The position numbers were made by a program, and so were the translations under genes. From Halapricum desulfuricans (GTDB lineage: Archaea; Halobacteriota; Halobacteria; Halobacteriales; Haloarculaceae), in assembly GCF_017094525.1 (NCBI RefSeq), contig NZ_CP064788.1, positions 1,783,030 to 1,847,029 on the forward strand: a stretch of 64,000 nt of DNA, given 5' to 3'. Below, one piece after another: positions 32,095 to 53,922 of this stretch. The notes under the pieces were generated by a model. That model was not told the origin of the DNA, ran no database searches, and saw only the letters and a program-made list of their open reading frames with translations. Numbering within the stretch: position 1 is the first letter of the stretch; each line of letters opens with the position of its first letter.

Positions 32095-33216
32095 ATGACT
32101 GGAGTCAACCGGGGTCTCGACGGCGTTGCCGTCGCAGAAACACGCCTGAGCACGATGGACGGCGAGGCCGGTGAACTGATCATCGGGGGGTTTCCCGTCG
32201 AGGAGCTGGCCGACAACGCCACCTTCGAGGAGACGCTGTACCTGTTCTTTCGCGGCCGGCTTCCGGACGCCGAAGAGCTGTCCGCGTTCCGCAGTGATCT
32301 GGCCGAATGCAGGGCGATCGGCGACGAGGTGCTGGCGGTGTTGCGACGGGCCGCCGAGGAGGAGAAACCAGCGATGGACGCGCTCCGGATGGGGGCCGCG
32401 GCGGCGAACCTCGGCACCGAGGACGGCGATCCCGAAGCCGACGCCCTGCGGGTCGTCGCCGCGTTCCCGACGATCGTGGCGGCCTACTGGCGATATCGCG
32501 TGGGCGAGGAGCCGATCGAACCCGACCCCGACCTCGGCCACGCGGCGAACTACCTCTACATGTTGACCGGCGAGCGACCGGACGAGCGCGCGGTTCGCGG
32601 GCTGGAGACGTATCTCAACGCCGTCGTCGATCACGGACTCAACGCCTCGACGTTTACGGCGCGCGTGGTCGTCTCGACGGAGTCGGACGTGGTTTCGGCG
32701 GCGACGGCCGCGGTCGGGACGCTGAAAGGACCGCTCCATGGCGGCGCGCCCGGGCCCGTGCTGGACATGCTCAAGGAGATCCACGAGTCGGGCGACCCCG
32801 AGGCGTACGTTCGGGAGAAACTCGAGGCCGACGAGCGACTGATGGGGTTCGGCCACCGGATCTACCGGGTGCGTGACCCCCGTGCGGCCGTCCTCGAGGC
32901 CGCCGCCGAGCAGTTCTACGATGACGACGACGATTTCTTCGAGACGATCACCGACTTCGAGGACGTCGCCGTCGATCTGCTGGCCGAGTACAAGCCCGAT
33001 CGCGACCTGGAGACCAACGTCGAGTTCTACACGGCGGCACTGTTGCACGGCGTCGGTGTCCCACAGGAGCTGTTCCCCGCGACGTTCGGCATCGCCCGGG
33101 TCGGTGGCTGGATGGCCCACGCGCTGGAACAGCTTGAGGACAACCGCCTGATCCGCCCCGAATCGAGATACACCGGCGAGCGCGGCCGCTCGTGGACGCC
33201 GATCGGGGAACGCTAG
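32095..33216 (+). CDS. citZ: Citrate synthase
   Basis: A 373-aa enzyme that condenses oxaloacetate and acetyl-CoA, the entry step of the citric acid cycle. The catalytic residues are visible: His in DHGLNASTF and in GPLHGGAPGPV, the active-site segment MGFGHRIYRVRDPR, and the C-terminal VGGWMAHALEQ. A TATA-like acatatat lies about 30 bases before the start. Its stop codon shares CTAG with that of the convergent dinB gene. Confidence 0.95.
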   Translation: MTGVNRGLDGVAVAETRLSTMDGEAGELIIGGFPVEELADNATFEETLYLFFRGRLPDAEELSAFRSDLAECRAIGDEVLAVLRRAAEEEKPAMDALRMGAAAANLGTEDGDPEADALRVVAAFPTIVAAYWRYRVGEEPIEPDPDLGHAANYLYMLTGERPDERAVRGLETYLNAVVDHGLNASTFTARVVVSTESDVVSAATAAVGTLKGPLHGGAPGPVLDMLKEIHESGDPEAYVREKLEADERLMGFGHRIYRVRDPRAAVLEAAAEQFYDDDDDFFETITDFEDVAVDLLAEYKPDRDLETNVEFYTAALLHGVGVPQELFPATFGIARVGGWMAHALEQLEDNRLIRPESRYTGERGRSWTPIGER

Positions 33217-34469
33217 AAGTCCGAAAGGGTCAGCTGGTCATCGTCTCGCGTGTGTTCCGGGCCGCGGTTGGACCGATCGCCTTGCTCCTGGCCGGCTTGT
33301 TCGTCGCTGTCGTCGAACCCGTCGAGACTGGCCTGTTCGCGGTCGGTGAAGGACAGTTTCGAAACGCGAACGCCCACCTTGCGGACGCGGGCGTCATCGA
33401 ACTCCGCAAGCAGGTCCGTCGCGATCGCCTCGACCAGATCCGGATCGTCGACAGGTCCGGACAGCGATCGAGCACGCGTGTGCACGTCGTACGGCGGCGT
33501 CACCACCTTGATCCCGATCGTCTGGTAGAGCGCGCTCTCCCGGCGAGCACGCTCTGCCACCGCGGTCGCGAGCGTTCGAACGCGCTCGTATACTAGGTCG
33601 ATGTCCGCGACGGGTTCGGAGAACGCCGACTCCCGCGAGAAGCTCTTCGGGTCGTCTCGGGGCGTGACCTCGCGGGCGTCCTCGCCGCGGGCGAACCGGT
33701 AGATCTCCCGGCCGCGCTCGCCGAAGCGATCGACCAGCCGGTCGGGGTCGGAATCAGCCAGATCGCCCGCGGTCTGGATGCCCATCTCGCGGAGTTCACG
33801 GGCGGTAACGGGGCCGACGTTGTGGACAGCCTCGACGTCCATCGGCGCGAGAAATTCCCGGACGTCGCCGGGTTCGACGACGACCAGTCCGTCCGGTTTG
33901 TCGGCGTCGCTTGCGATCTTCGCGGCGCTCATCGTCGGTGCGACACCGACGCTCGCGACGACGCCGACTGCTGATTCGATCCGGGCTTTCAGGTCGCGAG
34001 CGACCCCCTCGACGCCGTCCCAGTCCGTCCGATCGGTCACGTCAAGGTAGGCCTCGTCGATGCTGACCGCCCGGACGACGTCCGCGCTGTCCCGGAGGAT
34101 CGCCCGCACGTCCTCACTGACGGACTCGTAATAGTCCATGTCGACGGGCCGGTAGTAGCCGGTCTCCTCCGCTGAGTCGCGCTCGCTCGCGCCCGTTCCG
34201 TCGGTCTCCGCCCGGCGCGGGAGTCGCTCCAGGGCCTCGGAGATCGCCATCGCGCTCTCGACGCCGAACGCGCGCGCCTCGTAACTCGCCGTGGCGACGG
34301 CCCCGTGGTCGTCGCCGTCCTCGTAGCCCATCCCGACGACGACTGGCTCGCCACGGAGTTCGGGCTCGCGCAACCGCTCGCAGGCGGCGTAAAAACAGTC
34401 CATGTCCACGTGACAGACGATCTGCTCGGGGCTATTCGTACTCGTCAGACGAGCGTTATGGCGAGTCAT
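33213..34469 (-). CDS. dinB: Y-family DNA polymerase IV (DinB/Dpo4), with element-derived N-terminus
   Basis: A 418-aa translesion polymerase. Catalytic motifs are HVDMDCFYAACERL and SIDEAYLDVTD; the helix-hairpin-helix and little-finger regions follow, and the C-terminus QLTLSDF is a sliding-clamp (PCNA) binding peptide. The first 13 residues (MTRHNARLTSTNS) lie outside the 102-bp repeat, on the integrated element; the ancestral start (MPERARLPGVDRR) is left at 50217. The gene is therefore complete in length but has a replaced start and 5' region. It is divergent from the recombinase gene by 66 bases. Confidence 0.95.
   Translation of the reverse strand: MTRHNARLTSTNSPEQIVCHVDMDCFYAACERLREPELRGEPVVVGMGYEDGDDHGAVATASYEARAFGVESAMAISEALERLPRRAETDGTGASERDSAEETGYYRPVDMDYYESVSEDVRAILRDSADVVRAVSIDEAYLDVTDRTDWDGVEGVARDLKARIESAVGVVASVGVAPTMSAAKIASDADKPDGLVVVEPGDVREFLAPMDVEAVHNVGPVTARELREMGIQTAGDLADSDPDRLVDRFGERGREIYRFARGEDAREVTPRDDPKSFSRESAFSEPVADIDLVYERVRTLATAVAERARRESALYQTIGIKVVTPPYDVHTRARSLSGPVDDPDLVEAIATDLLAEFDDARVRKVGVRVSKLSFTDREQASLDGFDDSDEQAGQEQGDRSNRGPEHTRDDDQLTLSDF
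34329..34430. repeat. Left 102-bp attachment repeat (within dinB)
   Basis: Identical over 102 bases to 50077-50178. It encodes the dinB residues from PEQIVCHVDMD to EPVVVGM. A recombinase gene lies next to it, which supports its being the left attachment core of an integrated element. Confidence 0.93.
34441..34453. repeat. Small hairpin at left inner end of the element
   Basis: CTCGT-cag-ACGAG, a perfect 5-bp stem 10 bases inside the left repeat. It could be a recombinase or accessory-factor site, or could be chance. Confidence 0.3.
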
Positions 34470-34535
34470 CGAATGGCCCCCGTGGTAATGTCGCTGGTTC
34501 GGGGCCGCGCCTTCGTGGACTTCAGGAGCCCACCG

Positions 34536-35567
34536 ATGTCAACACTCGATCCGATCACGCCACGAGAAGCGTTGGAGATGTACTGTAATGACATTGACGG
34601 CGAGTTGTCGCCCAACTCTGTCCAGGCCAAACGCTACCAGTTAGGGTTCTTCGTCGACTGGTGCGAAGGCGCAGACAACGACGAGACGGCCCGTGTCGAG
34701 AATCTGAACGAGATCACTGGAAGAGACTTCACCCGATTCAAGAACTGGCGTAGCGACGGAATCAACAAAGTTACACTGCGGACAAACCTCTCGGCGTTGC
34801 GGACCTTCATGCGGTTTTGCGTTTCGATTGATGCGGTTGATCCGTCCATTCCCGAGAAGATCAATGTCCCAACGTTAGACTACGGTGAGAACGAACGAGA
34901 AACATTCCTGAGCCACGAGCGAGCAACGACGATTCGGGCGTATTTGCGGAAATTTCAGTATGCAAGCCTGAAACACGTCCTGTTCACCCTCCAATGGCAT
35001 ACGGGAGTGAGAATGTCGGCGTTGCATAGCCTCGACGTGGAGGATTTTGACTATGAACAGGAAACCATACGGCTCCGTCACCGTCCAGACACGGACACCC
35101 GACTCAAGAACGGGGAAGCAGGGAACCGTCTTGTAACGATCGACACTGAGACTGCCGCAGTCGTGGACGACTACATTGAGCACAAGCGAACCCCTGCCAC
35201 AGACGAGTACGGGCGACACCCTCTGTTCAGTTCCTCGAAGGGTGGTCGAATGTCCAAATCGCACTTGAACAAACACATGTATCGTCTCACAGTCCCCTGC
35301 GAGTACGGACAACCGTGTCCTGCCGACAAGGACCCACAGGACTGTGAATACGCTGGAACGTTTAGAGACTTCATCAAATGTCCGCACAATGTCCGTCCCC
35401 ACGATGTCCGTCGTGGAAGCATCACCCACTGGCTACGGAACGACGTGCCTGAGAAAGCAGTCAGTGACCGTATGGACGTCTCGGTGAAGACGATCGACAA
35501 GCACTACGACAAACGCAGTGAAGACGAACGAGCCGAGGTGAGACGCCAATACCTGAACGAAGTCTGA
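34536..35567 (+). CDS. Tyrosine recombinase / integrase
   Basis: A 343-aa site-specific recombinase. An N-terminal SAM-like core-binding domain (about residues 5-105) precedes the catalytic domain with Arg159 in HTGVRMSAL, the HxxR box in HDVRRGSITHWL (about 289-293) and the nucleophile Tyr324 in DKHYDKRS. A Cys-rich insert (CEYGQPCPADKDPQDC) before the HxxR box is often seen in haloarchaeal virus and plasmid integrases of the SNJ2 type. It most likely catalyses insertion and excision at the 102-bp dinB repeats. I choose ATG 34536 because upstream codons fall in the repeat. Confidence 0.93.
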   Translation: MSTLDPITPREALEMYCNDIDGELSPNSVQAKRYQLGFFVDWCEGADNDETARVENLNEITGRDFTRFKNWRSDGINKVTLRTNLSALRTFMRFCVSIDAVDPSIPEKINVPTLDYGENERETFLSHERATTIRAYLRKFQYASLKHVLFTLQWHTGVRMSALHSLDVEDFDYEQETIRLRHRPDTDTRLKNGEAGNRLVTIDTETAAVVDDYIEHKRTPATDEYGRHPLFSSSKGGRMSKSHLNKHMYRLTVPCEYGQPCPADKDPQDCEYAGTFRDFIKCPHNVRPHDVRRGSITHWLRNDVPEKAVSDRMDVSVKTIDKHYDKRSEDERAEVRRQYLNEV

Positions 35568-36571: not shown

Positions 36572-36691
36572 ATGTCTGCTACGGACGCGAACGATAACGA
36601 GAACAATAGTATAGATCTGCCAACTGACTTTCTACCAGCCCGCTTGCGGCTCCAGAGAAATCTCCGCGATGGGAAGGTGGGTGCAGAATGA
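36572..36691 (+). CDS. 39-aa protein coupled to rep
   Basis: The frame MSATDANDNENNSIDLP ... GKVGAE ends with a stop that overlaps the rep ATG (gcagaATGA), the usual sign of translational coupling. The peptide is acidic at first, then basic (PARLRLQRNLRDGK). It was too short for routine gene calling. It may control rep translation or copy number, but that is inference. Confidence 0.6.
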   Translation: MSATDANDNENNSIDLPTDFLPARLRLQRNLRDGKVGAE

Positions 36692-37767
36692 CCGACGTCG
36701 GGATTGACCCTGTCGAGCAGACGGTTTCCCATCCAACCGCTGTCGAAAGCCTCAGAGACCAATATCTCACCGCCAGAGACGGCGTCAGTCTCCGTGAGGA
36801 AGCCGTGACGGTCAAAGGTCGGGCGAGGACGTGGGGCGACGTCAGAGACGAATTTGAGTCGTATGTGTGGCGACAACGGAAAGCCAGCAGTACGTGGGAA
36901 GACGAGAAGAATGTCTCTCCTAACAGCCATCGTTTCACAGAGCAAGCGAGCAAGGACAGGTACGGGCGAACCCTCGGTGTTGATCGAGCCGCCCGCGATT
37001 TGTGGGGCAACGATTTAACCACGGTGTTCATCACTCGTCGAGCGAGAGCATTTGGCGAAAATGGGCAACCACAACCCCCAGCCGATCACCTCGACGATCT
37101 ACTCGATGGGAACCACAACGTGTATCGAGCCTATGAGAGGCATATCGAGGATGTCCACGGACTGACGTATGCTCGACTGTCGGTATTAGAACCCCACGCG
37201 AACGGGTACGCACACATCCACGATGCCCTGTGGGTCAAGGACCCTGACGCTGTCCTCAGTGACGTGGATATTCTTCCTGCCGTGGACGCACACCTCGACG
37301 CCGTCGAGCAAGCAAGACCACGAAATCACGGTCCTGCGGCGGTGGATGTTCGCCACGACCCCGAGGGTAGAGACAGAGAGAATCGAGAAACCGCACTTGT
37401 AGGAGACGGCGTCCCAGAATCGACGGCGTTGCCCCCTGAACTGTGTAAATATCTGGGCGGAATGGCGGAATATGACGGCTCCAGTAACGCAAATATCCCA
37501 CGTGTTCTCCAGGCCGATACTGGCCCACTGAGATTCTATGCGTTGCTCTGGGCGAGAGGCATTCGACAGTGGCGACCCGACCAATCGGAGTTCCCCCGTT
37601 TTGTAGGCATATCACAGTACTGGTACGATGACGACAGCGGGAGTGACGACGTCGAGGAGACAGTTGCTCCTGAAGATATCGAGAACGGTGGTGGCGTGGA
37701 TCGCGTCGACGTCGAAGGCCGTCCGACTGACTTTGAGAAGTACAACGCAGGTGGCGCAATGGACTGA
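36688..37767 (+). CDS. Candidate HUH-type replication initiation protein
   Basis: A 359-aa protein. The segment ANGYAHIHDALWV fits HUH motif 2 (His-hydrophobic-His), preceded by TTVFITRRA (motif 1-like) and followed by ELCKYLGGMAEYDG (like the Tyr/Lys motif 3 of haloarchaeal Rep proteins). Such proteins nick an origin and start rolling-circle replication of small plasmids and pleolipoviruses. It is coupled to the 39-aa gene. The exact Rep family is not certain from sequence alone. Confidence 0.72.
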   Translation: MTDVGIDPVEQTVSHPTAVESLRDQYLTARDGVSLREEAVTVKGRARTWGDVRDEFESYVWRQRKASSTWEDEKNVSPNSHRFTEQASKDRYGRTLGVDRAARDLWGNDLTTVFITRRARAFGENGQPQPPADHLDDLLDGNHNVYRAYERHIEDVHGLTYARLSVLEPHANGYAHIHDALWVKDPDAVLSDVDILPAVDAHLDAVEQARPRNHGPAAVDVRHDPEGRDRENRETALVGDGVPESTALPPELCKYLGGMAEYDGSSNANIPRVLQADTGPLRFYALLWARGIRQWRPDQSEFPRFVGISQYWYDDDSGSDDVEETVAPEDIENGGGVDRVDVEGRPTDFEKYNAGGAMD

Positions 37768-39986: not shown

Positions 39987-40496
39987 TTATTCATTGTAGT
40001 GCGCCTCTAATTCTCCCTTCACGCTTATAAATCGGAAACCGATAACAATGAGAAAAACAAGCAACATCACTGGTGCTGCGTCGGGAACGAGGTCAGCAAT
40101 CAGCAAAAAAAGTCCGTAGACTATAAAGAGCAATCCGTATTCCAGCGACATCTCTTGGAGAGTCAGCACAAATCGATAAGTGAGTGTCAGCTCGTGGGCA
40201 AATGCTGCAATCAAGAGTAGACCAAATGCTGCAGAGAACACCTCAATCTGGGAGGTATATTGGGTAGGATTTTCAGAGAGGATGATAGCTAATCCTGCAA
40301 AGACCAGACTCGCTGTAGCCAATGCAGTTCCGCGTTGATTCTGGGAGATCTCATCATAGAGATCGTGATCCTCGACGATCCCAAATTGGTGCTCTCTATT
40401 CAGATAGACTTTCGCTATTGCCTCAATTATGAAAAGTAGTATCAGAAACCACTGTCTTAGGACATTTATCCAACCAATCCCTGTTAGAATTGCCAT
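39987..40496 (-). CDS. Polytopic membrane protein, unknown
   Basis: A 169-aa protein with about four or five hydrophobic helices (VLRQWFLILLFIIEAIAKVYL, GTALATASLVFAGLAIIL, VFSAAFGLLLIAAFAHELTL, YGLLFIVYGLFLLIADLV, VMLLVFLIVIGFRFI). It is translated two bases after the zinc-ribbon gene stop, so the pair is an operon. No family is recognised. Confidence 0.7.
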   Translation of the reverse strand: MAILTGIGWINVLRQWFLILLFIIEAIAKVYLNREHQFGIVEDHDLYDEISQNQRGTALATASLVFAGLAIILSENPTQYTSQIEVFSAAFGLLLIAAFAHELTLTYRFVLTLQEMSLEYGLLFIVYGLFLLIADLVPDAAPVMLLVFLIVIGFRFISVKGELEAHYNE

Positions 40497-40498
40497 TA

Positions 40499-40612
40499 CT
40501 ATGGCTCGTATCCACAGTTACTGCATTTCTTCTTCCCTCCAGACTGGGTCAAATTTGAGGCACCGCATTTCGGGCAAGTCCACTGGCGTTTCTCAATCTT
40601 GTCTCCGCTCAT
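40499..40612 (-). CDS. 37-aa zinc-ribbon protein
   Basis: MSGDKIEKRQWTCPKCG ... KCSNCGYEP contains two CxxC knuckles spaced as a zinc ribbon, ending in TAG just before the ATG of the membrane protein. Small as it is, the clean motif and the two-base spacing argue that it is real. It may bind RNA or a protein partner of the membrane protein. Confidence 0.7.
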   Translation of the reverse strand: MSGDKIEKRQWTCPKCGASNLTQSGGKKKCSNCGYEP

Positions 40613-40781
40613 GCTAGGAGTGAGAACAACCAATAACAAAAATTGTTTGGTGGATAACTATGGACTGATCTATATCTCAGAGACAAGGGACCTGTCTATT
40701 CATGTTAACAGGTAATAAAAACTGCTAATTTAAAATATTAAAGTAGATCAAATGACTAGCACTCAATGAGAGCAAGCAATT

Positions 40782-41171
40782 ATGCCAGGAGATTCCTCAA
40801 CCACTGAGCCCGATCTCGAAGAAATCCATGAAGAAGTGACTGAGATTACCGCGATAGAAATCACGGAGCCGACAGATGCCCACAACGAACGAGATAATCC
40901 TGAAGTATCTGTGGCAGTTCAGCAGTTTGGTCGTACTATAGAACACTACACATTCGAATTCGTTCGCCCATCACAAGATACTGAATATCCGCGATATCGT
41001 CTTGGTCCTTTTAGAGTAAGTGAAAAATCCAACCAAACACAATACCAGAATAATGCAATGTATGAGGCAGCAAAAGCACTGGCCGAATATACAAAGACGC
41101 CAGTTAGGATGGAGGTCAAACCTGATAGTGAAATTGAAGATCAGGAATTGAAATCATATAGCGGCCCGTGA
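40782..41171 (+). CDS. 129-aa acidic hypothetical protein of the element
   Basis: The N-terminus is highly acidic (TTEPDLEEIHEEVTEITAIEITEPTD) and is followed by a compact domain (VAVQQFGRTIEHYTFEFVRP, YRLGPFRVSEKSNQTQYQNNAMYEAAKALAEY). It has no signal peptide or membrane helix. I cannot name a family. The AT-rich codon use suits the element rather than the host. Confidence 0.6.
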   Translation: MPGDSSTTEPDLEEIHEEVTEITAIEITEPTDAHNERDNPEVSVAVQQFGRTIEHYTFEFVRPSQDTEYPRYRLGPFRVSEKSNQTQYQNNAMYEAAKALAEYTKTPVRMEVKPDSEIEDQELKSYSGP

Positions 41172-41583
41172 GGTAGTGCAGGAAGATGTACTGGCTCAGA
41201 TAGAACTGATCGTAACCCAACCCCAATCTACAATATGGGACGCGTTTTTCCTATCTACCTCAACGATCTCGCCATCGAGGTGATCGACAGGTTCATGTTA
41301 TTGATCGGGACGGTCGCAACACAGTAGTCACCTACATTAAGCTATGATAGAGTTGCAACGGGGCCGACTGTTCGAATAGAGCGATACAGCTGTAGTGGGA
41401 GACGCTACCACTAACTCGTTGTCTGAACCGCGCTCATTGTGTCTCTTTCACCTCTGTTCAGGTCGTGAACATTGGGTAACGCTTATTCGCTCGTCATACG
41501 TGGTTTCACATGCATCTTCGTCTGAGGGTGTCAGCTATCGTTGCTGGCACCTCAGCATTAGACGATATAGCGGCAGGTATCGG
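41172..41583. other. 412-bp intergenic region
   Basis: No gene is visible. It contains the first copy of a 24-bp direct repeat (41511-41534) whose partner lies on the other side of the nuclease gene, near the 3' end of that gene. Confidence 0.4.
41511..41534. repeat. 24-bp direct repeat, copy 1 (flanks nuclease gene)
   Basis: The copy tgcatcttcgtctgagggtg plus tcag matches 42203-42226 with one mismatch in 24 bases. The two copies are 692 bases apart and enclose the whole nuclease gene. Confidence 0.8.
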
Positions 41584-42159
41584 TTATATTCGTCTCAGAC
41601 GACCCGCTTGTTCTTGCTTGATCATTTCGGGCGTGATTTCCTTCTTTGGGAGATGGCGGAGGTACTCAGGTCTAAGATGAACACGCTCGTCGTATGGACT
41701 GTGCTGACCAATCTGACGGAGTCGGCCAGCGGAGATGATCCCAAGCAGCCGAATGATCCCATTGCTGTACTCGGCGAGCAAGTAATCGTCGGCGTTACCG
41801 AGGGTATCGGAATCGACTGATAGTTCTCGGGGTCCATGCCAGCAAGTCTTGACGTCAATATCGCGGCCATGGACAGTGAAATCAGAGCCCCCATCACCCT
41901 GGTCTGCAGGGTAGATTGTCCGATCAACCTGCGTTTGGAAGTAAGTCGCAGCGATGTACTCACCGAGACGACCGACCTTGAACTGTTCTTGGCGTGTTGG
42001 GTTGAGATTGTACTGGCGACCGAGTTTAGTTGCAAATCGATTCGCGGAGTAGACGATATCCTCGTCAACAGACCCAAATGGGTGGTCTGTCCTGTCCCGA
42101 CTCAGCGGGAACGGCATTTGCGAACTGTGCTCCGTGATCTGTGTCTGCTCTGTGGACAT
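41584..42159 (-). CDS. Candidate PD-(D/E)XK nuclease
   Basis: A 191-aa protein whose centre fits the PD-(D/E)XK restriction-endonuclease fold: a helix with conserved Glu (GRLGEYIAATYF), then DQGDGGSDFTVHG giving the first acidic metal ligand, then DIDVKTCWH giving the D-x-K pair. Such folds occur in restriction enzymes, Holliday-junction resolvases and defence effectors. No cognate methylase is adjacent, though the element's DUF1156 methylase is 1.5 kb away. It is flanked by 24-bp direct repeats. The assignment is by motif only. Confidence 0.7.
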   Translation of the reverse strand: MSTEQTQITEHSSQMPFPLSRDRTDHPFGSVDEDIVYSANRFATKLGRQYNLNPTRQEQFKVGRLGEYIAATYFQTQVDRTIYPADQGDGGSDFTVHGRDIDVKTCWHGPRELSVDSDTLGNADDYLLAEYSNGIIRLLGIISAGRLRQIGQHSPYDERVHLRPEYLRHLPKKEITPEMIKQEQAGRLRRI

Positions 42160-42202
42160 AGATGTCTCTCGTGGTATGGAACCCCTCCAGAACCTCAGTC
42201 AG

Positions 42203-42226
42203 TGCATCTCCGTCTGAGGGTGTCAG
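42203..42226. repeat. 24-bp direct repeat, copy 2 (upstream of nuclease gene)
   Basis: It lies 44-67 bases upstream of the nuclease start, so it could be a binding site as well as a recombination scar. One base differs from copy 1. Confidence 0.8.
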
Positions 42227-42285
42227 GGGTGATCTACGTTCGAACCGTTCGTTTGATTACCTGTTCCTGAATGCCATCAAACCTC

Positions 42286-42302
42286 AGTGGGCTCCGCCCA
42301 CT
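42286..42302. terminator. Perfect 7-bp hairpin
   Basis: AGTGGGC-tcc-GCCCACT. It lies between the divergent nuclease and HTH genes, so it may be an operator or remnant end rather than a terminator. Confidence 0.35.
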
Positions 42303-42496
42303 CTATTCTTGGTATCGTGCCTATCCTGACCTCCGACAGCGATGTTTCTCTTCGCTCTATTGCTCGTAGTAGGCCGCTTGCGGGCCGTCGTCCGTGTTCT
42401 CTGTCGAACGCATCTGGTGATTCGAAGGGGGTACTAATAAGTTATCCCCTCAGCCTGGATTTCCCAACAAATTGTACGGACTTTTCACAGGGATTA

Positions 42497-42505
42497 GATA
42501 TATAG
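42497..42505 (+). promoter_or_regulatory. TATA box of the HTH gene
   Basis: gatatatag is centred about 28 bases ahead of the ATG at 42529, the spacing expected for a leaderless haloarchaeal transcript. It decides the start codon used for that gene. Confidence 0.6.
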
Positions 42506-42528
42506 TTGACAGAGCACAGACCTTACGT

Positions 42529-42873
42529 ATGGAAAATACTGGGATGGGTCGCCCGATTCTTCACGTCTTTAACGTAGCCGACCCAGCCTATACAGTAGAG
42601 ACGCCTGATGGTGAACTTATCGAATATCCATATCATCAGCGTTTAGATGCCAAAACGAGGTTTATGCTGATTAACCGCTTTGATGAGACACGGTTTGAGC
42701 CAGATGGCTTTCCGCAGATCCCTGTGGATATCGCAGCGTATGGTAAACCTGCGATTGCTGCTTATCTATGGGAAATTCAGGATGTTCCTCGGGAGGAGAT
42801 CGCTACAATTCTTGATGTTGAACCAAGTACAGTGAGACACTACGTTCGAGAATTTGCTCAAAATAATAGATAG
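42529..42873 (+). CDS. Small helix-turn-helix protein
   Basis: A 114-aa protein. The N-terminal half is of unknown fold (RPILHVFNVADPAYTVETPDGELIEYPYHQ). The C-terminal end is a clear HTH of the sigma-70 region 4 or LuxR-like kind (VPREEIATILDVEPSTVRHYVREF). It probably binds DNA and may regulate the element's nuclease or defence genes. The start was chosen from the TATA position; longer frames upstream have no support. Confidence 0.7.
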   Translation: MENTGMGRPILHVFNVADPAYTVETPDGELIEYPYHQRLDAKTRFMLINRFDETRFEPDGFPQIPVDIAAYGKPAIAAYLWEIQDVPREEIATILDVEPSTVRHYVREFAQNNR

Positions 42874-43183
42874 AGCACATCTTATATAGAGTCTGTCAGA
42901 ATATCAGTGGCACCAATTTTCTTTTGGCTCCGACTCCCCTGTTCTGAACACGACTTAATGAAGTGCCGATACAATGTATGAGCAGTGGGTATCGCGTATT
43001 GGGATATCAACACTATCGTGACTGCTGATCAGTCGGCTCCCACTCAATCCAGCGCCGACTTATCAATAGTGACGATGTCATCTTGCCAGTGGTCGCCAGC
43101 GTTATGTGTTCAGTTGGGACGGTGGTATCGTTTAAGCAGTGACCCTTCCAGCCACTATTGGAGAAGGAACGATCTCAAGAAGT
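42874..43183. other. 310-bp intergenic region
   Basis: It lies between the HTH gene and the small gene behind the DUF1156 methylase, which are convergent. I see no gene, repeat or clear hairpin. Confidence 0.35.
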
Positions 43184-43579
43184 TTATGATTGCACATTGA
43201 TATTGCTGTAGTACCAGCCAGCGCCTTCTTGCTGAATCCCATGGAACACCCGCTTGAGTGGGATCTCGTCGCCCTTGTTGCGGAGTATCGGTTCATCCCA
43301 GTATTCGATATCCTCAACCACGAACTGGACACGAGGGTTCTCTGTCAGTAGAAAATTCACATGGTCTCGGAAGATTCCGTGGACGTAATCGCACGCTTCG
43401 AGCGGCTCATCTGCAGCACGGAGAAAATCGTCAAGCCCGTAGACAGTGACATCGTATGGAAGACTCTCCATCCGATGGACGCTCCGCAGGAACTCAACTG
43501 AACTCATCTCTTCATTGAATGTTCCGTGTCGCTCAGCCGCGTCCTGCGAGTGCACGTGAAAGCCGATATCCAAACTCAT
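43184..43579 (-). CDS. 131-aa protein at the end of the PglZ operon, unknown
   Basis: MSLDIGFHVHSQDAAERHGTF begins a soluble acidic protein with segments YDVTVYGLDDFLRAADEPLE and VQFVVEDIEYWDEPIL. It has no metal motif except the early HVH. It starts 70 bases after the methylase stop on the same strand, so it could be the fourth gene of the operon, perhaps an accessory or regulator. I do not recognise the family. Confidence 0.6.
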   Translation of the reverse strand: MSLDIGFHVHSQDAAERHGTFNEEMSSVEFLRSVHRMESLPYDVTVYGLDDFLRAADEPLEACDYVHGIFRDHVNFLLTENPRVQFVVEDIEYWDEPILRNKGDEIPLKRVFHGIQQEGAGWYYSNINVQS

Positions 43580-43649
43580 CTGTTTACCCCCAACTGGTGT
43601 CGCCCTCCAATATAAACGTCAGTGCGAGAGGGTATTCGCCGTCGCATGG

Positions 43650-46334
43650 TTACGAGAAGTCTTCGAGATCAAGTTGTGTGTCCGTCCGCTCTTCGACATA
43701 GTCTGCGATGTCAGTATACTCGTCGTCATTTTCGATTTCAGCCAGTCGTCGAAGCGCAGCGATCGAGCCCTCGTCGGCCCACTTTCCAAACTTCTGTGCC
43801 AGTTGGTCCGTCTCGTAGAGGTAGCGCATGTAATGGGCCTTGTCGACTGCGAGGGTGTTCCGCTTGGATTCGACGTCGTCAGCACGGTCCAGTGGTCCGC
43901 GGACGTTCAGGTGGTCTCCCTCCTGTTCCAGCAAATCTTCGTGGACAAGTTCAGCGACATCGACTCCTCGCTGGCGGAGATCCTTATTCAGCGCGTTGTA
44001 GGAGATCGTCCCACCGCGTCCGAGCACATAAGTGAGGTAGACGGCACTGAGAGTATCCATCTCGTCACTCATCGTCTGCACCCGCTCTTCCATCAGCTGG
44101 TCGTCGACGATGTCACGGATGGTCTCGACCGCGGCATCGACAGTCATCTGCTCGCCTTCGTGAGTGACGTTCGGGAAGTGACGCGAGTACACTTCCAGGC
44201 ACTTGCCCATTGTCACCGCGAACACGTCGCCCTGCGTGAGCCGCGAGCCGCTCTCTTCGAGACGATTAATCTCCTCCTCGGCGCGGAAATAAATCTCGTC
44301 TTCCAGCGAGCGCCAACTAACAGTCTCAGGGTCTTCGTCTCGGTCCCGACAGACCACGATCATATCGTATTCGATGTTAGCCTTGTCATGGATGTGTGTC
44401 GACCCACGCATCTCGCCACGGATTGGATACAGGGACGTGACGTAGAATCCCGCTTCGAGAACGGATTTCAGCACTGTGCTCCACCCTTCTGTTTCCTTGT
44501 GATGGAAGGTGAAGGCCATGATGCCGTCGTCCTTGAGTTTCTGATTCGCTTGATCGAAGACGTTCGTCAGGCCCGTAACGAAGTGGTCCTCATCGCGGTA
44601 GGTGTCGACGCTGTCCTCGCCAGCAGGGTCGCTTACCACTTCGCTGGCTTTCGGTGTAAGTTCGGCAGTGAAGTGCTCATACTCGTCTTCGAGAACTTGC
44701 TTGAGCCAGACGTAGTAGAAGTCTGCTACCTCGGCGTACATCACGTTGTCAAAGTACGGTGGGTCTGTGATGACGGCATCTACACTGTCGTCTTCGATAG
44801 GAAGGTACTCTGAGGTTCCACAGCGAAGGTAGGTGTTGTACGTCGCATTTTCTGTTCCTTCGACGGGTTGTCCAAGTTGGTCTGGGTCATCAGCGACATA
44901 ACCCTCGATTTTGCCCACACCGTCTTGCTGTTTCGTCTCGCCGTCCTCGATGTACTTCTCGTAGGGATTCAGGCAGAACTCTTTCCCCGCCCGCATTTTG
45001 TCGAACTCCCCAGAGAATGTTCCACGTCCGTATTCAGTTCCCCAGAAGTTATTCTCAATCGGGGTGTGACGAGCGGTGATAGTATGCCGTTTATATATGC
45101 CTTCAAGCTTGTTCGCTGACCGATTGTACTCACAGAGCATATTGTTGAACTCAGAAGAACTCGAAAACGCAAGCAGAAGAAACTCCTTTATATTCTGATC
45201 GTCAATGCTGCCAATCTCACGCAGTAACTTCCCGAGACTAAGCAATTGGCGCGCGTTAAACATCTGGTCGTATCGCTCATAGCCGTGGTTTCTCGCACGG
45301 TCGGAACTTCCTCGATACCGCTCTGTTGTCGGGATTGGGAGCTCGTCACGAATCTCTTCGAGTTCTTCTTGGGCGTCGGCGTACCGTTCGCGGTCAAACT
45401 CGTCGGCAGGCTTGTACCCCTTCTCATCCGTCTCAGGACAGTAGTACTCCACAGCGTAGAGGGACTTGTCGGGTTTCCCAAAGCGATCTACGCTCTCGAT
45501 GATAGACATTTCAGGATGGTCGTCGCAGTGGGGGCAGGTATACGATCCGCGGGAGACATTACCCGCTTCTTTTGGGACGTACTCGTGGTCGCACTCAGGA
45601 CAGGTGGTTTCAGTGCGATAGTCATCAGTCTCGAAGACGTGCCAGCACTCGGGACAGACCACATTGTAGTGGTCGTCTTTCGAGGAGCGGGCATTTGCCA
45701 GTCGGTAGTCTTTGAACAGTGCGACATCTTCGCCGCAGTTCCGACACGGAAGTTCATCGACCCAGAAGTAGTACATCGCCTGGCCTTCCCGATCTGAGTC
45801 GGGACACTTCGTTCGATAGTAGTCCTTGATCTCTTCACCGACTGTCTCTTCGATCTGTTCGTATGCTGCGTCGAGTTTGTCTAAATCGACAGGTTCGACT
45901 TCTTTCTTGACGATGAACCACGCTACTGGGTTGAGCTCACTCCCGATCGCATTGGCCCCCATGCGAAGCGACTCAACGATGCTTGTCCCACCACCCATGA
46001 ACGGATCAAGGACGGTCTTGTCCCCGAAATCAACGTCTTCAAGATAGTATTCCCAGAGTGCATCGGGATTCTCCCAATCCACATCTGGAAGGCCCCCTTC
46101 CTCTGCAAGCGTCGACTGTCGTTCCCCGTCGACAGGCATTTCTTCGTCTGCCAGGGCGTACAGGAGCATTGTACGGAAGACTGAGCCCAGTCGCCGCGCC
46201 CACCACTTGTGCATTGTATAGACGGGGCGGTAATACCGCTTCGCGTGGGCTTCCTTGTTCGCGATTTCGTTCACCTGTTCGATAGGGAACGAGATTTCGA
46301 TCGGTCGTCGGTCATGGTCGCCGTTGGAAGTCAT
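43650..46334 (-). CDS. DUF1156 Zn-ribbon adenine-specific DNA methylase (PglX-like)
   Basis: An 894-aa methylase of the COG1743 type. The N-terminal DUF1156 segment has HKWWARRLGSVFRTMLL. SAM motif I (DPFMGGGTSIVESLRMG) is at about residue 110 and the catalytic DPPY (ITDPPYFDNVMYAEV) at about 545. Between them lie zinc ribbons (CRNCGED, CPECWH, CPECDHEY, CPHCDD). In BREX type 3 the same kind of methylase (PglXI) marks host DNA. Its ATG follows the PglZ gene stop by one base. The length is normal and no motif is broken. Confidence 0.9.
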   Translation of the reverse strand: MTSNGDHDRRPIEISFPIEQVNEIANKEAHAKRYYRPVYTMHKWWARRLGSVFRTMLLYALADEEMPVDGERQSTLAEEGGLPDVDWENPDALWEYYLEDVDFGDKTVLDPFMGGGTSIVESLRMGANAIGSELNPVAWFIVKKEVEPVDLDKLDAAYEQIEETVGEEIKDYYRTKCPDSDREGQAMYYFWVDELPCRNCGEDVALFKDYRLANARSSKDDHYNVVCPECWHVFETDDYRTETTCPECDHEYVPKEAGNVSRGSYTCPHCDDHPEMSIIESVDRFGKPDKSLYAVEYYCPETDEKGYKPADEFDRERYADAQEELEEIRDELPIPTTERYRGSSDRARNHGYERYDQMFNARQLLSLGKLLREIGSIDDQNIKEFLLLAFSSSSEFNNMLCEYNRSANKLEGIYKRHTITARHTPIENNFWGTEYGRGTFSGEFDKMRAGKEFCLNPYEKYIEDGETKQQDGVGKIEGYVADDPDQLGQPVEGTENATYNTYLRCGTSEYLPIEDDSVDAVITDPPYFDNVMYAEVADFYYVWLKQVLEDEYEHFTAELTPKASEVVSDPAGEDSVDTYRDEDHFVTGLTNVFDQANQKLKDDGIMAFTFHHKETEGWSTVLKSVLEAGFYVTSLYPIRGEMRGSTHIHDKANIEYDMIVVCRDRDEDPETVSWRSLEDEIYFRAEEEINRLEESGSRLTQGDVFAVTMGKCLEVYSRHFPNVTHEGEQMTVDAAVETIRDIVDDQLMEERVQTMSDEMDTLSAVYLTYVLGRGGTISYNALNKDLRQRGVDVAELVHEDLLEQEGDHLNVRGPLDRADDVESKRNTLAVDKAHYMRYLYETDQLAQKFGKWADEGSIAALRRLAEIENDDEYTDIADYVEERTDTQLDLEDFS

Positions 46335-46335
46335 A

Positions 46336-47226
46336 TTAGAGAGTTACCTTGATACGGGGCGTGATGCATTCCAGTAGACTACAACCACCATGCTGGAAGG
46401 TACTATACTTGCCTCTCACGGGCCACGTGTATCTTCCGATTGGCATATAGTAGCCATCTGACTCGACGACGAGACTCTCATCAACCAGATGATCTGCGTC
46501 AACATCACCGACGCTCTCGAAGCGCCCGCTGAACGTCTCTTGAAGGGCTGATTTCTCACCGTCACTGATCTGGAAGGTATGACCAGCATCAAGTCGCGCA
46601 TACCCGTGGTCCGAGCCGATCACCACGCGGTCAGTATCGAGTTGGTCAAGAATCGCTCTCAGAGTGGTCTCCGTCTTCTCATACATTTCTTCGATCGAGG
46701 ACAGTTTCGTCTTCCCCTCCTGAATGTTTTCGAGCAGCGCATCGGGGTAGCGACACCAGACAATCTCTTCGTCACCGTCGAGCGAGGGATCTTGACTTTT
46801 GACGCTTGCTGTCTTGTGTTCTCTCTTGAGGTCTGAATAGTCGACACGGTCGCGGTAGAACTTCGTCTCTGACGGGACTGAGGAAAACGAGTATTCTGTC
46901 TCAGGTTCGTGTCCTTGCTCTTCGAGCATATCGACGAACATCGCCGCCTCACGGACGCTCATCGCATCCATCACCACGAACGTGCCGCCGTCAGGAACGT
47001 CGAGAGACGCTTCATTGACGCACTTGTCGGGTAGCACTTCATCGAAAAACTCTCGATAGACGTCCAGCAGCAAGCGCTCGTAGCTTACTGCGTCGGTCTC
47101 TTTCCCGTAATGCTCGTTGATATCGTCGCCAGCGGGATACCAGATGTCCCAGAGTGCGTCCCACACTGGCGGGACAGGGTCATCGTTCTCAACCAATTGA
47201 GCGAGGTCGTCAGTCCTCAGTCTCAC
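46336..47226 (-). CDS. Short PglZ-domain protein (alkaline-phosphatase superfamily)
   Basis: A 296-aa protein. FVVMDAMSVREAAMF carries the metal-binding Asp and the Ser nucleophile position, VVIGSDHGYARL the second metal site (SDHG), and FQHGGCSLLECITPRI the closing HGG motif of PglZ domains. Canonical BREX PglZ is two to three times longer, so this is close to a bare catalytic domain. It overlaps the DUF499 gene by 17 bases and abuts the methylase gene. It is probably a nuclease or phosphodiesterase used in a phage-defence complex. Confidence 0.85.
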   Translation of the reverse strand: MRLRTDDLAQLVENDDPVPPVWDALWDIWYPAGDDINEHYGKETDAVSYERLLLDVYREFFDEVLPDKCVNEASLDVPDGGTFVVMDAMSVREAAMFVDMLEEQGHEPETEYSFSSVPSETKFYRDRVDYSDLKREHKTASVKSQDPSLDGDEEIVWCRYPDALLENIQEGKTKLSSIEEMYEKTETTLRAILDQLDTDRVVIGSDHGYARLDAGHTFQISDGEKSALQETFSGRFESVGDVDADHLVDESLVVESDGYYMPIGRYTWPVRGKYSTFQHGGCSLLECITPRIKVTL

Positions 47227-49735
47227 GTTCGACCACCACCGTTACGTCGATGTGATCGGCACTCGGGAGTTGTTCGAGAAACTCAATTAGTTCATCCTTC
47301 GAGAGATCGTCGACATCGTAATTCAGGTCCACGCTAACTGTCGTATCCGTATCGCTGTTGATCCGCGACTCGGCTTGACTTCTGAGCACGCGGGCACTGT
47401 TGCCTTCCAACTCAATGGTCTCCTTGGTCGTAGATACAGGTGAAGGACCGCCACCTCCGCTACCTCCACCACTGCCGCCACTACCGCCGCCTCCTCCTGA
47501 CGTCGGTTTATCGGGACCATCACCGCCGTCGCCACCGCCACTGTCGATGTCGCCACCCCCACCGTCACCGCCGCCAGTCGGCTCTGGCGGTTCCTCTTCT
47601 TCGAAAATCGAGTCGTCAAGGTTGTCGGGATGGTGGATCGTCAGGTCATCATCGAGATCGGGAAGGGGGTCGTCTTTCTGAGGGACGTAGAAGTTCGCTC
47701 GGTCTCCTTCGAGTACGATCTTCTCGTCGCGGTATAACTGCCTGACTGCGGAGTAAAACACCTCATCGGACAGGAGCACAGGCATCCGACGGAACTGTCT
47801 GAAATCGTTAAGCATCGATGCGATAGCGATACCATTTTCAGCGTCCGCAACTTCTTCGCGGACTTTCTTACCAACGTAGGTCTTGTCTCGACCGACTTTG
47901 TCTTTCACGTCGTCGACATCTGCTGCCACATCGATCCGTCGCATTCGTACACCGTCGCCGCTCGGGTCTTCGCTCCATTTGACCCACTTCCCGAAGCGAT
48001 CTTCGAGTTCGTTCCGCAGTTCCCGTCGCTCGTCGCGGATGATCGACGCGAGTTCTCCATCGTCGTCGACGTTCCCACGAAGATTCTCGGCCCCAAGCAC
48101 GCGGGCAGCCTTGCTAATTATATCCTCGTCGTCGCGGACCGCTTTCTTTGGCGTGACGAAAAGTACTGTGTTTTGGTAGGTTCGACCCTCGAAGAAGTCG
48201 CTAAGCTTCGCTTGCAATGCTCCGTTCGAGAGATAGTCAAGCATCACGACCGTGGTCAGTTCCTTGGTGTCGGGAACATCCTCATCGGGGTAAACGTAGA
48301 CATCGTCATTCCACACATCTTTTTGGACCACGTCGACAAGCGTCTCCTCAATGCTGTCGCGGTCGTCCCCGAGTGCTCGTTCCTGTTCCCGCGTAACGAG
48401 TGCGGTGAGCTTGGGATCTTCTGTCAGGTAGTAGTTTTCCTTCTGAGAGTCGCGGTCAAGGTAGTGAGCAACCCCGTAGAGACTCTCCAGCGACATGTGA
48501 AGCTTATCGACGGTCGTCTTCTCGGGCTTGAATGTCCCGAGCAAGCACTCGGTCACAGACGCCCGCTGCTCTCGCTCCTCGATTGTGTACAGGAAGATTG
48601 TCCGTAGTAAGTCATCTCCAAAGTCGATGTCCTCGACAGCGTCTTTGTCCGAGACGTAGCGGTTGAATAGCGTTTGGTTGATCCCACGGAAGGCACTCGG
48701 TTCGATGTCGCAGGTGACGATGAGATCCGTCTCCTCGTACTTGCGGCGGACAGTATCGGCAAGCACGTTCATTACGCCACGGACACTCTGGCGTTCCTGG
48801 CCCGCTTCGTAAATGTCGTCGAGGAGGTCGAGCAATTCAGGGTGGAAAGGATATGTCTCGACCATCCGATTCTCGTATCGCTTTGGCTCATCGATTTCGA
48901 TAGGAAATGTGTAGTGGTCGACGTACTCACTCACGACATCCCGAACAGCCTTCTTATCGACGTCCTCTTGGCGTGTCTCGAAGAGGCGGTGAAGGATAAT
49001 TTGTTCGCGGTCCCCCGTGTCGTTCATATCGACCGCATAGGGGTTTGTGCGGTCGAGAATCCGTCTGATGTCGCGGCTCTTGTCCAGCAGGGTGACGAAC
49101 GCGAATAGGTCCTCCTGCGGGTCGTTGGCAACTTCGAAGAGGTTCTGGAGGAAGAACTCGTTTCGTTCGAGCAGTTCCTCGTTCTCGCTCTCGTCGAAGG
49201 ACTCCCACCACGTTTCGATCTCGTCGAAGAAGATAGCGACAGGTTCCTCGTCGCTGAGTTGTTCGAGGTGGTCGGTTGTCGGATAGCGTTTGATGTCGTC
49301 GAGAAGATCCTCACGGCCCAAGTCCCTGAAGATCGGCTCCCAAATGAGATCGGCGTCGGTCTCACTGGTCGAGTGGATAGACGCCTTAGTACTCTCGGGA
49401 AGATCGAGTGTGATACCCCAGTCGTCGACCCACTTCTGAGCGACATCTGGGCTGTTGAACATATGGTAGAGCACGAGAAGACCGTGAGACTTGCCAGCGC
49501 CGTAAGGGCCAGAGAGTGCAATGCCACCCTGGCTGTCGCGTCCGCGAAGTTTGTTATCGACATAGTCGAACGCAGTTTGCAGCGCGTTCGAGGGATAGGT
49601 CATCGAGAACAGACGATCAGCATCGTTTTCCAGTCGATCCTCATCGTCCCCAACCTTGTGGGCCTGCAGGACGCCTTGGAACTGTCCTTTGATGACTTCA
49701 TCACGGGGGGTGAGGAGATCGCGAACTGCAGTCAT
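47210..49735 (-). CDS. DUF499 family AAA-like ATPase (BrxC/PglY-like role)
   Basis: An 841-aa P-loop ATPase. Walker A is SGPYGAGKSHGLLVLYHMF and Walker B AIFFDEIETWW, in the N-terminal third. A long helical region follows. Near the C-terminus a Gly-rich linker (runs of GGGDGG and GGSGG, coding about 47440-47590) leads to a small end domain (SVDLNYDVDDLSKDELIEFLEQLP). DUF499 proteins occur in anti-phage gene clusters. I choose the ATG at 49735 (MTAVRDLLTPRDEV); a start at 49825 is unlikely because a TATA-like motif falls in between. It is the first gene of the operon. Confidence 0.87.
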   Translation of the reverse strand: MTAVRDLLTPRDEVIKGQFQGVLQAHKVGDDEDRLENDADRLFSMTYPSNALQTAFDYVDNKLRGRDSQGGIALSGPYGAGKSHGLLVLYHMFNSPDVAQKWVDDWGITLDLPESTKASIHSTSETDADLIWEPIFRDLGREDLLDDIKRYPTTDHLEQLSDEEPVAIFFDEIETWWESFDESENEELLERNEFFLQNLFEVANDPQEDLFAFVTLLDKSRDIRRILDRTNPYAVDMNDTGDREQIILHRLFETRQEDVDKKAVRDVVSEYVDHYTFPIEIDEPKRYENRMVETYPFHPELLDLLDDIYEAGQERQSVRGVMNVLADTVRRKYEETDLIVTCDIEPSAFRGINQTLFNRYVSDKDAVEDIDFGDDLLRTIFLYTIEEREQRASVTECLLGTFKPEKTTVDKLHMSLESLYGVAHYLDRDSQKENYYLTEDPKLTALVTREQERALGDDRDSIEETLVDVVQKDVWNDDVYVYPDEDVPDTKELTTVVMLDYLSNGALQAKLSDFFEGRTYQNTVLFVTPKKAVRDDEDIISKAARVLGAENLRGNVDDDGELASIIRDERRELRNELEDRFGKWVKWSEDPSGDGVRMRRIDVAADVDDVKDKVGRDKTYVGKKVREEVADAENGIAIASMLNDFRQFRRMPVLLSDEVFYSAVRQLYRDEKIVLEGDRANFYVPQKDDPLPDLDDDLTIHHPDNLDDSIFEEEEPPEPTGGGDGGGGDIDSGGGDGGDGPDKPTSGGGGGSGGSGGGSGGGGPSPVSTTKETIELEGNSARVLRSQAESRINSDTDTTVSVDLNYDVDDLSKDELIEFLEQLPSADHIDVTVVVERETED

Positions 49736-50046
49736 AGGATGTGACAGACTCCACGCCCGTACCACTTCATACTTATCACTGAAAAGAGCCGTGTCGTGGT
49801 GAGAGCGGGACGCGCAGGCAGTCACGTTGCCCTACAACTGACTGCCGAGCATCACGCCGAACCCGACCGCTCGCAATCCTACAATCGCACTGCAAACGAT
49901 CACCTACTTTTTCGTATCTGGATGCCTTCAACACAGATGAAGTCCACGACGGGACGCGCCTCGAACGAAAGTATGTGACGATCACGTCGAAACGAATGGA
50001 TAAATCCCGCCGTCCTCGTAGCCGTCGGTGGTTTCGTGAAACGAAA
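49736..50046. other. 311-bp right end of the element
   Basis: It holds the promoter region of the DUF499 operon (an AT-rich cttatcact motif near 49772-49780 in plus reading) and then non-coding sequence with a hairpin at 50032-50046. No gene is visible. Confidence 0.4.
50032..50046. repeat. Hairpin near the right attachment repeat
   Basis: TTTCGT-gaa-ACGAAA, a perfect 6-bp stem 31 bases inside the right repeat. Confidence 0.4.
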
Positions 50047-50056
50047 TCACCGATTA

Positions 50057-50073
50057 GCCGAGGTCTCCTCGGC
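50057..50073. repeat. Hairpin touching the right attachment repeat
   Basis: GCCGAGG-tct-CCTCGGC, a perfect 7-bp stem ending four bases before the 102-bp repeat. It may be an accessory site for recombination. Confidence 0.45.
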
Positions 50074-50076
50074 GTT

Positions 50077-50178
50077 CATCCCGACGACGACTGGCTCGCC
50101 ACGGAGTTCGGGCTCGCGCAACCGCTCGCAGGCGGCGTAAAAACAGTCCATGTCCACGTGACAGACGATCTGCTCGGG
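50077..50178. repeat. Right 102-bp attachment repeat
   Basis: Identical to 34329-34430. Left of it lies element sequence and right of it the ancestral dinB start, so it is the right attachment copy. Confidence 0.93.
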
Positions 50179-52542: not shown

Positions 52543-52720
52543 GTGAAGTACCCCGCGCACGGTGGCGCGGGGCGTCCGTGTCTACTCTGGTACTGCTGAG
52601 GCAACGGACTTGAATTCCTCTCGCGCTTGACTCTGCGAGTCTCGCGCCGACGGTCCGTGTCGGTCAACACCCGAACCCGAAGTGGGTCCGTGAGAGTCGG
52701 CCCCTCCACCAGGGCCCGAT
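52543..52720 (-). ncRNA. Probable TnpB guide RNA (omegaRNA) region
   Basis: In this family the guide RNA is read from the 3' part of tnpB through the right-end hairpin. Here that covers the tail of the gene and the gcgcgggg hairpin, and the guide would continue into host DNA to the left of 52543. The boundaries are inferred from family knowledge; no transcript evidence exists here. Confidence 0.45.
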
Positions 52721-53922
52721 ACCGCCCGTCTCACCTTCTTCACCTGAGGAAGGGTGTCGAGAGGCGGCACATTTCCATACTGTTCATCGAACCACTCCTG
52801 CACGACGCACACCGCCGCCTTCCGATCTGCATGGTCCTGGAACCCACACTCCAGACACTTGAACCGCTTTTTCTGCCGGTTCGCTCGTTCGGTATGCTGG
52901 CACTCCGTTCGGGGGCATCGCTGACTCGTGTACTCCGGGTCAGCCTTGTCAGTGGGAATCCCACTCCAGGCAGCCTTGTACGACACCATCTCTTGGAGTG
53001 CCGCGAACGGCAACGAGTGGAGCCGACGGTTCATCCGCGTGCCGTAGTCGATGCTGTCTCGCATGTCTTTGAGGTCTTCAAAGACAAGTACCGGGTCCAG
53101 AAACTGCGAGACCCATTCGACTACGTGACGCGATACCTTGTGCAAAGCGTCGTGGACGTAGTCGCGTTCTTCGGTCTGTACGACTGATTCAAAGCCTGTC
53201 TGCCCCGCTTTCTGCATCCGCTTGCGTTTGGTGAAAAACTCGTGACGCTGTTCTTTCACCGATGGATACTCAAACACCACGGAATCTTTCACAGCACCGT
53301 TTCGACTCATCGCAACAAGTGCGATGCAATCCTCGTTCACATCCACACCAACAATCGTGTCTGCATCGTGTTTGCTGGCGACTCGATGCGTTTCATGCGT
53401 GATGGTAACGTGAAGTCGCCATTCGTCGTGTTTGTGGACGACTTCAGCCGTGCCAACCCGCCATTCCTCATCGTTGAAAGCAGTCCTCAGACGGTCGAAG
53501 TGGTCAGGGCTCCCACGAAGTTCACCTTTGACGTGCGTTCCTCTCGTAGCCGTGATGCGGAATCGAACTGTGGTATCGTCTTCGGGGAACAGCCGGTAGC
53601 CTTCGCCGTGGTTCATCACCATCGGGTACAGGCCGTCAATGTATGGGTAGGGCCGCCCCCACCCATCATCTTTGTTGTCACGGTAGGTTTCGAGCTCTCC
53701 AAGTGCCTTGTCAACGATGAGTTGAGTGGTGTTGTTAACGTGATCGGCGTTGGTGACGACAGTCGATTTGATGTCGTCCCACTCCCATCCTTGTCCGTCA
53801 AGGCGATTGGTTTCGTTACGAATGCGACGAGCTTCGAGACAGCCCGTTTGCAGATCGTCGCCACTCCCCGTGTCAATATCTAGTCCGAACGATAAGGTCT
53901 GGGTGAGTTTGGACAACTGCAC
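52582..53922 (-). CDS. tnpB: TnpB, RNA-guided endonuclease of an IS200/IS605 element
   Basis: A 446-aa RuvC-like nuclease. The catalytic residues appear to be intact: Asp in VGVDVNEDCIAL, Glu in PVLVFEDLKDMR, and Asp in FQDHADRKAAVCV after the zinc finger (RCPRTEC ... CLEC). TnpB proteins cut DNA guided by an RNA made from the element's right end, which helps keep the element in the genome. The start is a GTG at 53922, with a TATA-like catataag 10-18 bases ahead. The C-terminal tail after residue 390 is long and low in complexity, probably overlapping the guide RNA gene. Confidence 0.9.
   Translation of the reverse strand: MQLSKLTQTLSFGLDIDTGSGDDLQTGCLEARRIRNETNRLDGQGWEWDDIKSTVVTNADHVNNTTQLIVDKALGELETYRDNKDDGWGRPYPYIDGLYPMVMNHGEGYRLFPEDDTTVRFRITATRGTHVKGELRGSPDHFDRLRTAFNDEEWRVGTAEVVHKHDEWRLHVTITHETHRVASKHDADTIVGVDVNEDCIALVAMSRNGAVKDSVVFEYPSVKEQRHEFFTKRKRMQKAGQTGFESVVQTEERDYVHDALHKVSRHVVEWVSQFLDPVLVFEDLKDMRDSIDYGTRMNRRLHSLPFAALQEMVSYKAAWSGIPTDKADPEYTSQRCPRTECQHTERANRQKKRFKCLECGFQDHADRKAAVCVVQEWFDEQYGNVPPLDTLPQVKKVRRAVSGPGGGADSHGPTSGSGVDRHGPSARDSQSQAREEFKSVASAVPE

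Follow-up and report, generated by a model that had tools for sequence, protein, structure and literature searches.

A mobile four-gene operon of Halapricum desulfuricans as a likely helicase-less variant of the Type-3 BREX-Related systems

An integrative element in the chromosome of Halapricum desulfuricans carries four intact genes, encoding a DUF499 ATPase, a short PglZ, a DUF1156 methylase and a protein of 131 aa, that keep a fixed order, are inherited together, evolve under purifying selection and show part-by-part homology to a known system, with no helicase in cis. We consider it likely that this operon is a self-contained unit of innate immunity, representing in a variant form without the helicase the Type-3 BREX-Related (BR) systems as described in the main text of the paper that defined them (PMC12839542), and that it works by the mechanism proposed below. 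The window, that is, the whole stretch of DNA analyzed, comprises 64,000 nt of assembly GCF_017094525.1 (NZ_CP064788.1, positions 1,783,030-1,847,029, forward strand), and feature coordinates refer to it.

All four genes lie on the minus strand. The ATPase, an 841-aa AAA+ protein recognized as a BrxC counterpart by its Pfam match, Walker motifs and PADLOC assignment to HmaC, spans 47210..49735; its start is placed at the ATG at 49735, as in homologues, and a start at the alternative GTG at 49825 would lengthen the protein by 30 aa. The stand-alone PglZ (296 aa, 46336..47226), by its residues and fold match a probable metal-dependent nuclease or phosphodiesterase effector, is followed by an 894-aa N6-adenine DNA methyltransferase (43650..46334), the counterpart of BrxX/PglXI by Pfam and its PADLOC assignment to HmaB. 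The ATPase and PglZ reading frames overlap by 17 bp, and a 1-bp gap separates PglZ from the methylase. The start of the fourth gene (43184..43579), assigned by position and profile match as the counterpart of a BrxB/BrxF-type iSTAND, lies 70 bp past the methylase stop codon. A previous sequence-only reading had placed the first three genes correctly in coordinates, strand, overlap and gap, had given the right PglZ length, and had described as intact the Walker A/B motifs, the PglZ SDHG and HGG motifs and the methylase DPFMGGG and DPPY motifs; the catalytic motifs of all three proteins are indeed intact. Its three-gene unit, in which the 131-aa gene at 43579-43184 was overlooked, has to be extended to four. 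The same gene, as a homologue, contradicts its statement that BrxB or BrxF is missing; the remainder of that statement stands, as no BrxA, BrxL or helicase was detected in the element. The triplet whose co-occurrence it had proposed to search for does recur in 26/26 haloarchaeal loci, always with the 131-aa gene as a fourth member.

The ATPase matches DUF499 in Pfam (5e-9), and both its Walker A (GPYGAGKS) and Walker B (FFDE) motifs are intact. Its best PADLOC match is to HmaC (2.4e-21) and that of the methylase to HmaB (3.8e-47), rather than to BREX proteins. HmaB and HmaC belong to known defence families, and these matches are counted in favour of the operon being probably defensive. The methylase matches N6_N4_Mtase (6e-15) and DUF1156 (4e-6) in Pfam, with the DPFMGGGT, DPPY and DUF1156 HKWWARR motifs preserved. 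A zinc-finger recognition insert, containing four CxxC motifs that make up two 4C zinc fingers, lies between motif I at position 110 and DPPY at position 524.

The Pfam score of PglZ (23.0 bits) falls slightly below the 25-bit cut-off, and the assignment is upheld because an independent fold match agrees with it. The AlphaFold model, built from 24 sequences with a pLDDT of 83, matches most closely the PglZ domain of PorX (2e-9), and also BREX PglZ 9zn5 (1e-6); the next matches are enzymes of the nucleotide pyrophosphatase/phosphodiesterase family. At the sequence level, the profile matches BREX PglZ 9nv3 (3e-7). The catalytic residues D87, T121, D162, D206-H207 and H279 are intact; T121 aligns with the motif that holds T538 of the Escherichia fergusonii PglZ, and H279 aligns with H741. 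The E. fergusonii enzyme nicks and linearizes dsDNA in a metal-dependent manner, an activity abolished by the T538A substitution (PMC12205998). Loss of this nuclease activity through T538A in Type 1 BREX cost ~3 logs of defence without abolishing it (PMC12205998). By these correspondences PglZ is likely the effector of the operon.

In three related haloarchaeal loci, the gene maps place a gene of ~130 aa straight after the methylase, and a homologue of the fourth gene is found directly 3' of the methylase in all 26. The gene has no Pfam match, and its identification as DUF3780 was rejected for that reason. Its haloarchaeal profile matches the bacterial gene located between methylase and helicase, with E values down to 7e-11, and this bacterial gene occupies the place expected of the published Type-3 BR iSTAND (BrxB/BrxF-like). 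Profile-profile comparison with hhalign connects the haloarchaeal set to the iSTANDs encoded in bacterial loci that have the helicase (E 8e-12, probability 97.5) and to the fourth-gene set of non-haloarchaeal archaea (3e-14). Direct comparison with the most divergent, proteobacterial iSTANDs was not significant (E 0.4 and 0.1); the link to these consists of position and motif, with the homology running through the intermediate bacterial loci. The AlphaFold model (pLDDT 86) shows alternating β and α elements and, towards the C-terminus, several short strands in succession. Foldseek returned no significant match for it (best E 0.17), the hits being mostly P-loop folds of the RecA, AAA and KaiC types. 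A P-loop fold is therefore weakly suggested, from homology and topology only. Homology outweighs the fold search as evidence, and by profile comparison the fourth gene is a homologue of the BrxB/BrxF-type iSTANDs.

The four genes are cargo of an element (34318-50178, about 15.7 kb) whose target gene, dinB (33213..34469, minus strand; Pfam IMS 7e-40), encodes a Y-family polymerase and is interrupted in its 5' part. The element is bounded by 113-bp direct att repeats that are 96% identical, the left copy (34318..34430) lying within the 5' part of dinB and the right copy (50066..50178) adjoining the operon. It encodes a tyrosine integrase (34305..35567, plus strand; Pfam Phage_integrase 5.7e-10, NCBIfam XerA_Arch) and a DUF1424 replication-type protein (36688..37767, plus strand; Pfam 1.1e-23), and its GC content is lower than that of the flanks. 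The congeners G002 and G005 have an empty site, with dinB uninterrupted and ~0.3 kb in place of the 16 kb of the element. The insertion gives dinB a new N-terminus. The element also contains a gene (38318-39706, plus strand) for a 462-aa HNH protein weakly similar to the HNH regions of IscB and DpdF; considered as a missing nuclease of the system, it was treated as a passenger, as it is not among the recurring neighbours of the operon. Just outside the element a TnpB-family RNA-guided nuclease is encoded at 52582-53922 (minus strand). Related operons are also borne by plasmids, e.g. pHLAC01 (Halorubrum lacusprofundi) and pKBTZ03_58 (Halobacterium salinarum); phage records and viral contigs yielded none.

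The same genome contains a BREX type 5 locus (G000:C1, ~1323.5-1346.3 kb; L013, L018) comprising BrxA, BrxC, BrxB, BrxC, PglX, PglZ and BrxHII. An inserted transposase gene (L013 12927-14072) divides its PglX into two parts. That locus lies ~480 kb from the operon and has its own complete gene set, which rules out the operon as a distant part of it.

A profile of the short PglZ, searched across 392 genomes of the order, found matches in 26, every one of them at E < 1e-87, and the short PglZ is therefore a discrete family. The order ATPase-PglZ-methylase-small gene is kept in all 26 haloarchaeal loci and is seen again in the Theionarchaea locus L084 and the archaeal loci L077 and L078; besides the four, no gene recurs around most of the 26. 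Against homologues 71-90% identical, the dN/dS of the four genes is ~0.04-0.09 wherever dS was computable (synonymous sites were saturated for the fourth gene versus L056 and for the methylase versus L058). Such values, together with the order kept in 26/26 loci, argue against a chance arrangement; the four-gene operon is conserved, under purifying selection and mobile. Several loci carry additional genes. In one subclade (L061, L063, L064, L065, L082) a 284-aa D12-class adenine methylase, possibly a second methylase, directly follows the operon, and in the non-haloarchaeal archaeon L077 a HerA/DUF87 ATPase (14682-15866) comes straight after the fourth gene. Two bacterial relatives have insertions between PglZ and methylase, namely SIR2 and ATP-binding protein genes in L079 (9838-12715) and a DUF3800 gene in L105 (10848-11630).

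The closest published counterpart is one of three DUF499-centred BREX-Related systems. According to the main text of Rakesh and Krishnan (NAR, January 2026; PMC12839542), Type-3 BR is found in 569 taxa, 134 of them archaeal, and comprises a DUF499 ATPase, a DUF1156 methylase, a BrxHII-like helicase and a standalone PglZ, with an iSTAND gene in 82% and two 4C zinc fingers in a subset of the methylases. The operon shares with this description the ATPase, an intact standalone PglZ, the methylase and the iSTAND, in the order of the bacterial loci, as well as a recognition insert inside the methylase core with two 4C zinc fingers as in the published subset. It differs in lacking the SNF2/BrxHII-type helicase, which the main text describes as the third core component, and in the lengths of its methylase (~850-900 aa here versus ~990-1110) and iSTAND (~130 aa versus 140-210). 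What the sequence-only reading called a reduced Pgl/BREX-like system, and a possible distinct minimal defence system, is thus, in parts and order, the published Type-3 BR system minus its helicase, judged by that main text; its view of a compact BREX-like unit outside any longer BREX locus and carried by an integrative element agrees with the remote BREX type 5 locus, the att repeats and the empty sites.

Other known systems are more distant. Type-1 BR, which is the Hma system (HmaA helicase, HmaB methylase, HmaC ATPase), has a homologous methylase and ATPase, whereas the operon has no helicase or helicase-nuclease and possesses PglZ and an iSTAND-like gene. Type-2 BR differs by its DUF3780 gene and HKD-helicase, neither of which the operon has. 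All four core roles of BREX types 1, 3 and 5 (B:C:Z:X) are represented, and the PglZ folds are related. In contrast to these types, the ATPase belongs to DUF499 rather than to the DUF6079 type, the methylase is a DUF1156 protein, PglZ consists of the catalytic domain alone (BREX PglZ is long), and the element has no BrxA, BrxL or helicase.

Three sister loci (L168, L169 and L170), on plasmids of Natronorubrum, Halosimplex and Halobiforma, encode homologues of the DUF499 ATPase, the DUF1156 methylase and the 131-aa protein, arranged as in the operon, and differ in having no PglZ and in being accompanied by a divergent pair of AAA_5 and McrC-like (McrB/McrC-like) genes. In the tree with a Type-1 BR outgroup, the methylases of these loci share a clade with that of the operon. 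If PglZ is an exchangeable effector, a McrB/McrC-like pair in its stead would be expected, and these loci fit. It is possible that the effector position is modular, taken by either PglZ or a McrBC-type nuclease, assuming that the parts of these loci work together.

No SNF2/BrxHII-type helicase was found within ~9 kb of the 26 haloarchaeal loci, setting aside an SNF2 protein at L045 that was rejected as a BR helicase: it is a 446-aa protein that scores 138 bits, compared with at least 650 bits for full-length BR helicases, and it is encoded behind a gene on the opposite strand. The helicase is also missing at L084, L077 and L078; thus no archaeal locus examined has one, and its absence is a rule rather than an accident. 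In one clade, nearly every related bacterial locus has it, in the order DUF499-PglZ-methylase-iSTAND-SNF2 helicase. At L101 it lies 5.5 kb downstream, with inserted genes between. In a methylase tree of 93 rows, helicase-less and helicase-bearing loci fall on opposite sides of a split with SH-aLRT 100, the labels of the two rows off that split being scoring errors. With a Type-1 BR outgroup, the helicase-bearing methylases form one clade (SH-aLRT 98), but the tree does not resolve how the deep helicase-less lineages branch; the DUF499 tree gives the same grouping with weak deep support. As neither tree fixes the rooted deep order, both a single loss of the helicase and several losses are compatible with them.

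The missing parts can be accounted for in other ways. Components of BREX and of bacterial Type-3 BR loci are lacking, as would be expected if a once larger locus of BREX or BR had decayed, but all four genes are intact, purifying selection is strong and the composition is the same in every one of the 26 loci, so that conservation and dN/dS make this reading barely credible and it was set aside. An ordinary Type-3 BR system would instead obtain its helicase in trans, for instance from the BrxHII of the BREX type 5 locus that the H. desulfuricans genome holds. At a threshold of 1e-30, at least one SNF2 match is indeed present in 17/26 haloarchaeal carriers; however, a genome-wide search for BR helicases at the same threshold found none in 9/26 haloarchaeal carriers, nor in the G424, G537, Theionarchaea and Desulfofervidaceae genomes (13/31 genomes in total), and mobile elements and plasmids that carry the operon could not depend on a helicase of the host. 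Generic SNF2 helicases, with matches weaker than 1e-30, could act in trans. Overall, supply of the helicase by the host appears quite improbable.

The function of the operon and of its PglZ can likewise be read differently. Its place beside attR inside the element, and its presence on several plasmids, would suit a mainly selfish addiction or epigenetic module comparable to plasmid-borne restriction-modification, rather than an antiviral system. A mobile-element site is equally standard for defence cargo, though, and PglZ, BrxC-like and BrxB-like proteins are components typically found in antiphage systems; sequence alone does not separate the two roles, maintenance and antiviral roles may coexist, and a mainly selfish role is regarded as rather unlikely. 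PglZ, for its part, might spare DNA and hydrolyze nucleotides or cyclic oligonucleotides, as a regulator or a nucleotide-depleting effector. The ranking of its fold matches, with PorX PglZ closest and nucleotide pyrophosphatase/phosphodiesterase enzymes following, points in this direction, as do the inhibition of BREX PglZ by NTPs and its additional cleavage of linear oligonucleotides and cA6 (PMC12205998). The dsDNA nicking and linearization by BREX PglZ, lost when the residue equivalent to T121 is replaced (PMC12205998), and the McrBC-like nuclease that stands in for PglZ in the sister loci favour a DNA effector instead, and a DNA-sparing PglZ seems unlikely, if worth keeping in mind.

The preferred reading remains that of a helicase-less Type-3 BR variant, for which DNA methylation, assembly of a complex, a nuclease activity of PglZ and an antiviral role are all predicted. 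The methylase would mark a specific motif of the host by adenine methylation. The ATPase, the small protein (taken to be a BrxB/BrxF-like inactive NTPase) and PglZ would assemble on DNA in the manner of the BrxC:BrxB:PglZ core; in Acinetobacter BREX, BrxB bridges BrxC and PglZ (PMC13326643). Upon sensing unmethylated invading DNA, the complex would turn from modification to restriction, and PglZ would then nick or cleave the DNA of the invader, a sequence of events that would not require a dedicated translocating helicase. More tentatively, and with somewhat less than even confidence, the operon may be a complete system, in which a BREX core methylates and restricts without translocase, helicase or BrxL and PglZ is the sole restrictor, constituting a distinct, mainly archaeal subtype with a sister subtype that uses a McrBC-type nuclease for PglZ.

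The operon bears on the question of which BREX parts serve methylation, which serve restriction, and how the DNA is restricted. In the Type 1 BREX system of Acinetobacter, the B:C:Z:X set is genetically needed for both methylation and restriction (PMC13326643). Whether this core suffices, with PglZ as its sole effector, can be tested directly in a natural operon that has B:C:Z:X alone, is under purifying selection and moves between archaea. The 2026 description of Type-3 BR, as given in its main text, also needs qualification, in that the helicase is no part of the system among the archaea examined, and the operon may display the smallest set of parts that such a system needs.
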